A stretch of DNA of 64,000 nt, taken from positions 124,001 to 188,000 of the forward strand of contig JANWYD010000009.1 of assembly GCA_025057155.1 (NCBI GenBank), written 5' to 3'. This document shows, one piece after another, positions 7,734 to 9,529 of this stretch (position 1 is its first letter; every line of letters begins with the position of its first letter). Source of the DNA: Chloroflexaceae bacterium. GTDB taxonomy: Bacteria; Chloroflexota; Chloroflexia; Chloroflexales; Chloroflexaceae. A program made the position numbers and the translations under genes. Under the pieces are notes generated by a model. The model made no database searches. It had not been told where the DNA came from and saw only the letters and a list, made by a program, of their open reading frames with translations.

Positions 7734-7759
7734 AGATGCGTTCCTGAGGTGAAAATCAG

Positions 7760-7912
7760 CTAATCTTCCACTGGCAGCTTACGATACTGCTGCAAATCTT
7801 CTACGGAGAAATTATCGGGCGGAACAAGACGGCAATGCTTTTCTCGCATTGCAAGAATACCGGGCGTGCTGTCTGGCACTTTTGTCTCGGCCAGCAGTTC
7901 ATTAATATTCTC
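7760..7912 (-). pseudogene. Short coding remnant downstream of the methyltransferase
   Basis: An open frame of 50 codons follows a TGA at 7913-7915. It reads ENINELLAETKVPDSTPG, then ILAMREKHCRLVPPDNFSV, then EDLQQYRKLPVED and a stop. Composition looks like a real hydrophilic protein C-terminus and, as in the neighbouring methyltransferase, is AT-richer than the nuo genes. The only ATG in frame (7847-7849) would give 29 residues; an ATT at 7904-7906 would give 48. I do not recognise the family. It may be the 3' end of a partner gene, such as a restriction endonuclease or antitoxin, lost after insertion, or a tiny intact gene. Confidence 0.45.
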
Positions 7913-7983
7913 TCACACTGCAATTGGCCAGAGATATGGCGAAAACAGGTTCACTCACACCCGTTAAACCGCCTGTTTTTACG

Positions 7984-9363
7984 TTAGACCAAACTTATAG
8001 CGCTACCGGGCCAGCGCAAAACAACAACCTCTTCTCGCAACTGCGCTCTGGTTGCGGTAGCGATGCGTGTGCGAAAGAGATCTATGCTTACGACCTCATA
8101 GCCCAGAGTTTGCGCTATATCTGCCAGGAGTTCGCCTGTTCGTATCATCACTCGAAAATAGGAAGCCTGATCGCCGACAACATATGCTAGCTGTGCCCCT
8201 GGACGTAAAACGGCACGCAGATCGGCAAGATGCCGTGCTATGCCCCCAAAGTAGAGTTTCGCAACTTTTGCGTATAGTCGTTCAAAACCTGAAGTTTTTT
8301 GTAATTCGGCGCGTCGAGCCTCAATTGCGTCAGCAAGATGTTGGATTTTGGGGAATGATGCCACCCATTGGTCGTCATTATCCGCCCTGTACACATTGCG
8401 AGTATTAGAGCGCAAAAGATTTTGTTTCAGAGCCCGCAGTTCTGTCTTACTCTGAATAAATCCAAGCAGTACGCTCTCAAGTCGCGTTGTTCGAGTGTAA
8501 TCTTTTTCATTTGGATAAGGAGGAGAAGTGATGACCGCATCGATCGAACTGTTTTGCAACACATCTGATATTCGTCGGGCGTCTGCATGATATACTACCG
8601 CTTCTGTGCGATCGAACTGCTGTAACTGTCGCAGATCTCTCGCCATTACATAGATGCCATCTAACCAGGCGGCGATAACTGGAGCATCCAGCTTCTTTGG
8701 GCCAATCCCAACTTCTGGCCCAAAATGCAGGTTGCTAATAGAGAACGCCAGGGCTTTCGCAAGCGCGAGTCGCTGATGTCTTTCAAATCGCGGATCTGCG
8801 TTTTGTCGTAAGCAATCGAGAAGGACAAGAACCTTGTGTAATGGAAGGGGACTGATGGAGTTGGCGAGTAAGAGCTGCATAAGCTCCGGATTGATAGTTC
8901 GTAGACTCTTATCTGTAAGGTCATTCTCAGTTATTTGGTTAAGCAAAGGATTATCTGTAATCCCATCCTCTTCGAGTATTCTTAACGCAATTTCTGCCAC
9001 ATGCTCGGAATGTTTCACGAGACTTTCGGGATCGGGAGACCAGTCAACTTTGACCTGTCCTGCAAAATGCGCCAATGGGTTCGCTTCGAAACCTGTACTT
9101 GGAACGCCTAACTTCTTACATTCAACCAGCGTTGTGCCGGTACCGCAAAATGGGTCGAGAACACGGTGATGATCTCGGAGATCAAATCGCCGCACATAAT
9201 CACGAACCAGGTGCGGAGGGAAGGAAAGCACGAAACGATACCAGCCGTGAGCAGGCCGATCCTGGTCAAACAGTTTGTTGATGTCGCCGTTGCTTACGCG
9301 GCGATCATTCGTTTGTTCATCAGGCGCTGTTGCCGGATAGGGGCTCGCTTCGCGATAATCCAT
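7984..9363 (-). CDS. Site-specific DNA methyltransferase (amino-MTase) inside the nuo cluster
   Basis: A 459-residue protein starting at the ATG at 9361-9363 behind AAGGACGC. It carries the SAM-binding motif I LDPFCGTGTTLVECKKLG at residues 69-86 and the catalytic motif IV AVITSPPYPNEKDY at about 276-289. TSPPY is typical of enzymes methylating the exocyclic N4 of cytosine or N6 of adenine. Motif I precedes IV with ~200 residues between, which could hold target recognition. Base composition is plainly AT-richer than the genes either side, pointing to horizontal transfer. It lies in the same direction as nuo, between nuoL and nuoM, where nothing is expected. No intact endonuclease is adjacent, only the short remnant at 7760-7912. 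It could be an orphan regulatory or protective methylase. Confidence 0.88.
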   Translation of the reverse strand: MDYREASPYPATAPDEQTNDRRVSNGDINKLFDQDRPAHGWYRFVLSFPPHLVRDYVRRFDLRDHHRVLDPFCGTGTTLVECKKLGVPSTGFEANPLAHFAGQVKVDWSPDPESLVKHSEHVAEIALRILEEDGITDNPLLNQITENDLTDKSLRTINPELMQLLLANSISPLPLHKVLVLLDCLRQNADPRFERHQRLALAKALAFSISNLHFGPEVGIGPKKLDAPVIAAWLDGIYVMARDLRQLQQFDRTEAVVYHADARRISDVLQNSSIDAVITSPPYPNEKDYTRTTRLESVLLGFIQSKTELRALKQNLLRSNTRNVYRADNDDQWVASFPKIQHLADAIEARRAELQKTSGFERLYAKVAKLYFGGIARHLADLRAVLRPGAQLAYVVGDQASYFRVMIRTGELLADIAQTLGYEVVSIDLFRTRIATATRAQLREEVVVLRWPGSAISLV

Positions 9364-9529
9364 CGTTTGCGTCCTTGATGTTGCAACCGCGCATCATCTA
9401 GACACGCTGCACGCGAGAGGCGTTTCCCGGCAATTTCTCTTTCCGGTGAGAAGCAGCGAGTTCCGGGCCGCTGCGAATAAAGTTCGTGGCATTGGCCCTC
9501 CAAACTTCCACAACAGGCGAAGTCTCACG

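Follow-up and report, generated by a model that had tools for sequence, protein, structure and literature searches.

A probable decayed Type II restriction-modification cassette with an intact methylase between nuoL and nuoM in a Chloroflexaceae genome

A DNA methylase gene is found inside a complex I operon in the 64,000-nucleotide stretch of Chloroflexaceae DNA analysed here (the window), and the locus raises the question of how the gene came to stand between nuoL and nuoM, what the short coding remnant downstream of it represents, and whether the two together form a defence system. The window lies on contig 9 of a 5.13-Mb draft assembly of 189 contigs (G000), in which the insert is single copy. 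The genes nuoL, methylase and nuoM are co-directional on the minus strand (Table 1). A preliminary description, made from the letters alone, had placed a methylase with the motifs LDPFCGTGTT and TSPPY in this position, with about 170 bp of spacer upstream and a 50-codon open stretch downstream; the open reading frame, Pfam and NCBIfam results confirm the arrangement, and the spacer measures 166 bp. The insert is very probably a recently acquired and decayed Type II restriction-modification (R-M) cassette of which the methylase survives as an orphan.

Table 1. Positions of the features discussed, in the numbering of the window (REase, partner endonuclease)
Feature	Position	Strand	Basis
nuoL, complex I subunit L, 746 aa	9530–11770	minus	NCBIfam NDH_I_L 2.4e-164; Pfam
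Foreign insert, ~1.77 kb, borders approximate, in place of the short spacer of relatives	7757–9529	minus	Congener spacers, shared nuoM leader, GC drop
Spacer, nuoL stop to methylase start, 166 bp	9364–9529	minus	
Methylase open reading frame, 459 aa, intact, between nuoL and nuoM	7984–9363	minus	PADLOC, Pfam
Open stretch of 50 codons, stop to stop, holding both REase pieces	7760–7912	minus	
Relic piece 1, corresponding to residues 99–117 of the 265-aa REase	7847–7903	minus	hmmsearch domain 1, 13.7 bits; tblastn
Relic piece 2, corresponding to REase residues 240–263	7775–7846	minus	hmmsearch domain 2, 16.9 bits
Retained nuoM leader, likely ribosome-binding site	7734–7757	minus	22/23 nt as in G003
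nuoM, complex I subunit M, 555 aa	6066–7733	minus	NCBIfam NDH_I_M 1.4e-142
Palindrome GGGGAAACCNGGTTTCCCC, starts	2464, 4210, 4298, 4386, 15761, 32573, 38681, 39474, 42867, 42936, 52599		

The insert and its empty site

A search of 61 genomes, own genome included, yielded NuoM in 57, and 30 nuoM loci were fetched, one being that of the window. The nuoL–nuoM spacer is measurable in 26 of the 29 others, the lengths being approximate, with nuoL ends extended to the next stop. It is about 3–224 bp in 24 of these relatives; G048 (397 bp) and G006 (955 bp) have longer ones. Two congeners have a complete spacer, of 42 bp (G001) and 102 bp (G002). The three loci that could not be measured are L030, which starts inside nuoM, and those of congeners G003 and G004, the contigs of which end in repeat-rich spacer about 210–220 bp before nuoM. 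tblastn shows no methylase match in any of the 29 other fetched loci. The methylase is also absent from all four same-genus genomes, three of which give partial matches with E-values of 3e-6 to 5e-6 and the fourth none.

The sequence adjoining nuoM is of the genus type. Of the 23 nt before nuoM, 22 are common to the window and G003, which sets the approximate insert border given in Table 1; with G004, 17 nt are shared until the sequences diverge.

The methylase has a GC content of 0.491, and the remainder of the window 0.649. Its GC3 is 0.439, and nuoL and nuoM show 0.909 and 0.928, a disparity that speaks for recent arrival. The difference between methylase GC and flank GC was determined at 71 homologous loci (9 of 80 were dropped, with flanks <4 kb or open reading frames >600 aa); the mean is −0.044 (sd 0.042), the value here is −0.158, and only one of the 71 loci is lower. 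Thus the low GC content seen at first reading holds, as does a foreign methylase inserted at the nuoL–nuoM junction, which is indicated by the low GC3, the absence in congeners and the short spacers of relatives. The statement that the two nuo genes are normally contiguous stands in the form of near-contiguity, with G048 and G006 as loci with longer spacers.

That an assembly chimera put foreign DNA into the nuo operon is extremely unlikely. The assembly is a draft in many contigs and the contigs of two congeners break in the corresponding repeat-rich spacer, but the two flanks are parts of a single operon, each with 96–97% protein identity to congener G002, the leader before nuoM is genus-type, and a chimera would need exit and re-entry within the same spacer.

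At the insert, no mobile-element ends and no duplicated target site were evident. This, with the draft state of the genome, counts against an acquired cassette as the explanation, and a transposon insertion was rejected since neither matching terminal repeats nor a target duplication stood out. A 14-nt inverted pair (7806/9426) that is 86% complementary lies inside the insert borders and was treated as chance. The spacer upstream of the methylase was also considered as a repeat element and rejected: it is single copy in the genome, and in 20 near genomes nothing convincingly related to it was found, the sole weak match being 40 bp in G037 (E-value = 0.008).

A 19-bp palindrome, GGGGAAACCNGGTTTCCCC, is found at 11 window sites with at most 3 mismatches, and at none in shuffles. 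There are 135 exact copies in own genome, 187, 282 and 1306 in three congeners and 9 in the fourth; six genomes outside the genus have 0. The palindrome precedes nuoM in G002–G004. From these counts it is apparently a genus-restricted, strongly amplified repeat. The spacer of G006 (locus L028, ~955 bp) carries a different element, an open reading frame of >200 codons among short tandem repeats, which by eye we take to resemble Rpn-type proteins.

An intact methylase and a relic endonuclease

The methylase is a Type II amino DNA methyltransferase (PADLOC MTase_II PDLC03224, 4.5e-41; Pfam N6_N4_Mtase, 3.7e-9), with DPFCGTGTT at residues 70–78 and TSPPY, a motif common in m4C enzymes, at residues 279–283. 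A structural model (pLDDT 88.1) was not used for naming; of seven Foldseek matches to it at E ≤0.001, five are Trm11-type tRNA methylases, and TM-scores by query length are ≤0.31. phmmer against PDB gave five weak matches. In an alignment of 66 of the 81 available sequences the methylase keeps 155 of 158 near-invariant columns (≥95% conserved in the other 65 aligned). All 3 deviations are conservative, and the family median is 2 with a range of 0–6. Compared with two Roseiflexus copies, codon position 3 differs at 0.62 and positions 1–2 at 0.14–0.20. Judged by alignment and codon positions, the methylase is an intact coding sequence under long-term constraint, the measured span of which includes time before insertion.

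The preliminary description had proposed that the 50-codon stretch was left from a partner endonuclease or an antitoxin, and that a profile search might identify it. tblastn of the stretch against the fetched loci gave two matches to the gene that immediately follows homologous methylases, covering remnant residues ~4–22 and ~18–48. This gene encodes a conserved protein of ~265 aa that is recognized by PADLOC as REase_II PDLC03404 (2.5e-119 and 2.8e-114 for two intact examples); Pfam shows no match to the same two examples. A REase profile built from 41 intact homologues matches the remnant in two neighbouring domains (profile positions 99–117 and 240–263), with a total of 31.2 bits and an E-value of 1e-8 (hmmsearch). 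The remnant is the only match to the profile at E ≤10 among the 1727 open frames of the window. The best of 2000 shuffled remnants (1068 reported by the program) reaches 8.7 bits, and the reversed remnant gives −2.8.

The two pieces are joined in frame, and REase codons 1–98 and 118–239 are gone. No profile match to N-terminal REase sequence is found between the methylase and the relic. The relic retains 12 of 13 positions that are ≥90% conserved, with Tyr244 (invariant, 41/41) replaced by Cys. The first GTG of the frame is codon 12 and the first ATG codon 22, so that it could specify at most a 29- or 39-residue scrap, without the nuclease core. By its profile match, the remnant is two pieces of the partner Type II endonuclease, which has lost its N-terminus and its putative nuclease core. 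The profile search thus upheld the suspected endonuclease leftover and contradicted the antitoxin. That the remnant is an antitoxin or another small gene partnered with the methylase has next to no probability; it entered only as the alternative of the earlier reading, and the two-domain match, the lack of an ATG before codon 22 and the lack of a Pfam match in a search of the remnant rule against it, or against an unrelated small gene.

Residues E162, D164, E165, P180, Q182 and K184 of the intact family are each invariant (41/41), and all lie in the deleted stretch. Presumably, E162-x-D164-E165 and Q182-x-K184 are motifs of catalysis, and residues E162, D164, E165, Q182 and K184 look catalytic. 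phmmer of the REase against PDB shows no relevant match. The AlphaFold model of the L068 REase (mean pLDDT 91.8) gave no Foldseek match at E ≤0.001 and was not used for naming. A second-look structural alignment places residues ~108–245 beside nucleases, all with Z <8 and with unrelated proteins also listed: a Pyrococcus repair endonuclease (7.4), a Holliday junction resolving enzyme (7.2), BsaXI (7.0), DrdV (6.4), EndoMS (6.3) and MspI (4.8), the top row being a protein of unknown function (7.8). We take these nucleases to be of the PD-(D/E)XK kind, and the model is only suggestive of such a fold in the partner endonuclease.

No other copy of the REase family is found in the G000 assembly at E 0.001. 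With an intact Type II methylase, a cognate endonuclease present only as a relic and no other copy found, the insert is not a functional Type II R-M system and, from its gene content, cannot restrict DNA by itself. The methylase has no partner endonuclease and shows evidence of a former one, as in an orphan methylase. An established defence gene, which the preliminary description had entertained, is not supported, given the destroyed endonuclease, the failure to find another family copy in the genome and the four congeners without the methylase.

REase relatives paired with a C5-cytosine methylase and not an amino-methylase are found at loci L149, L151, L157 and L159. Two of these are in genomes of the order, read by eye from motifs; the other two rest on annotation, one being on a Klebsiella plasmid and one on a Paracoccus plasmid that also carries a Vsr gene. 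The pairing with annotated cytosine methylases on the two plasmids suggests, by analogy, that the target site may contain cytosine; with the TSPPY motif, the window methylase may be an m4C and not an m6A enzyme. Plasmid records holding a REase relative number 64, all with <60% identity.

Endonuclease loss among related methylases

The best 80 of at least 577 methylase relatives in public genomes, from many phyla, were surveyed for the REase directly downstream. Two of the 80 loci end too soon to be scored. Among the 78 readable loci, the REase is intact at 44 and fused at 3; at 11 it is broken (some possibly sequencing errors in draft genomes), and 20 have none in the locus. The intact REase starts at a median of 3 bp past the methylase stop, with a range of −56 to +60. 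In a quick tree of 86 rows the REase state changes at least 21 times. Thus, as read from these loci, retention of the methylase after endonuclease loss is common in this family (31/78), and the many parallel cases make it suitable for study of how endonuclease loss proceeds.

The window methylase forms a clade with three copies from genus code g23 (G042, G048 and G056; loci L062/L063), two of them named Roseiflexus, with an SH-aLRT support of 99. All three are without REase. This counts against arrival of a complete R-M system: the working endonuclease may have been gone before the cassette arrived, in which case an orphan methylase was transferred. Such a transfer is possible but doubtful. 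The sister copies favour it, but the relic keeps nearly all of its conserved positions, which suggests recent loss, and the two named Roseiflexus loci show no relic and, with G042, lie in other surroundings.

The methylase is found at E ≤1e-100 in 13 of 61 genomes, own genome included, and four of these 13 (G011, G019, G021 and G034) have the REase. A REase-family match (E 0.001) is present in 9 of 82 genomes of the order and is lacking from each of the four congeners. Across the phylum, the methylase occurs at E 1e-60 in 31 of the 400 genomes sampled, a count that includes own genome.

This distribution bears on whether the orphan is established and selected, either because it protects against the entry of R-M systems that share its specificity or because it acts as an epigenetic regulator, with expression from the nuo operon. 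Such selection is unlikely. The methylase is intact, its codon positions show long-term constraint against the Roseiflexus copies, copies with no REase or a broken one are frequent among relatives, and five cyanobacterial REase-less copies form a coherent tree group. However, the methylase is missing from every congener sampled, is patchy in the phylum and is strongly foreign in composition, and the measured constraint includes time before insertion. Dam is likewise a solitary amino-methyltransferase and is a conserved orphan methylase with a cellular role. Unlike a lineage regulator of the Dam or CcrM kind, the window methylase is in 0 of 4 sampled congeners and, on present evidence, would not be a lineage-conserved regulator.

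Phage or plasmid carriage was also considered and rejected. A phage collection shows no match to the methylase at E 1e-20, and the plasmid matches are two Leptolyngbya plasmids at 51%. One contig of the viral collection IMG/VR carries a methylase that is 62% identical (L176, 5001–6302), with no family REase in the 11.3 kb fetched. Fusions of methylase and endonuclease in one frame are found at L079 (8040–10205), L110 (72–2174) and L134 (2516–4780), in two Pyrinomonadaceae records and one Verrucomicrobia record. The methylases of L138 and L139 are nearly identical (end branches 0 and 0.003) and come from bins named Chloroflexia and Phycisphaerae; the likeness represents either a recent transfer or mis-binning.

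Course of decay and expression

An acquired R-M cassette that decayed in place would have the following history, the order of insertion and decay being our inference. A Type II cassette, methylase then endonuclease, would have arrived horizontally in the repeat-bearing nuoL–nuoM spacer after the lineage split from the sampled congeners. The endonuclease gene would then have lost about its first 98 codons, and a second deletion would have removed ~122 codons with the putative nuclease core, fusing the two scraps in frame. The methylase frame would have stayed intact, giving an orphan without restriction partner; the host genome is probably still methylated at the site of this enzyme. In an R-M system the methylase protects and the endonuclease harms, and loss of the endonuclease first is the tolerated order.

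The R-M systems at L068, L120 and L111 (PADLOC MTase_II PDLC03224-like with REase_II PDLC03404) have a methylase of the same family and the same order of methylase then endonuclease. Both relic pieces of the window are in the right order and strand by comparison; however, the endonuclease here is destroyed and the site is inside a respiratory operon. The orphan methyltransferases that PMC6471742 describes from R-M decay in Halobacteria likewise are intact methylases without a restriction partner; in the window, by contrast, legible endonuclease remains persist and the methylase lies between nuoL and nuoM. According to the same source, endonucleases of Type II are far fewer than the methylases, as decaying systems would lead one to expect. 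A literature search found no report of a methylase between nuoL and nuoM. R-M decay is a common kind of event, the location is moderately unusual and the relic is unusually legible. The locus appears as a readable intermediate between an R-M system and an orphan methylase, with the endonuclease reduced to two fused scraps and the methylase frame untouched.

A scan of the coding strand of the insert shows no promoter-like site. There are 6 terminator-like sites in the insert on both strands, vs 2.9 ± 1.7 in shuffles; the sole one on the coding strand (7852–7832, inside the relic) is a weak but possible terminator, with 7 pairs, 4 of them G-C. Since all genes are co-directional, read-through of the methylase from nuo transcription is likely, and the methylase is probably expressed from nuoL–nuoM transcripts. 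Co-expression with complex I is plausible from the gene arrangement, and the nuo operon may give the methylase transcription without a promoter of its own. A further conjecture is that the complex I operon captured the methylase, so that genome methylation would follow respiratory expression, serving as an epigenetic mark coupled to respiration or as permanent protection from R-M systems that share its specificity, the endonuclease deletion having made the capture possible. This is very unlikely.

Two nuoH genes are found on contig 9 of the assembly, at contig positions 143–1171 and 137349–138365, which points to a further set of complex I genes close to the contig start. The genome thus probably has two such sets, with the methylase insertion in one of them. 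Two complex I gene sets are also stated for Chloroflexus aurantiacus in PMC3150298.
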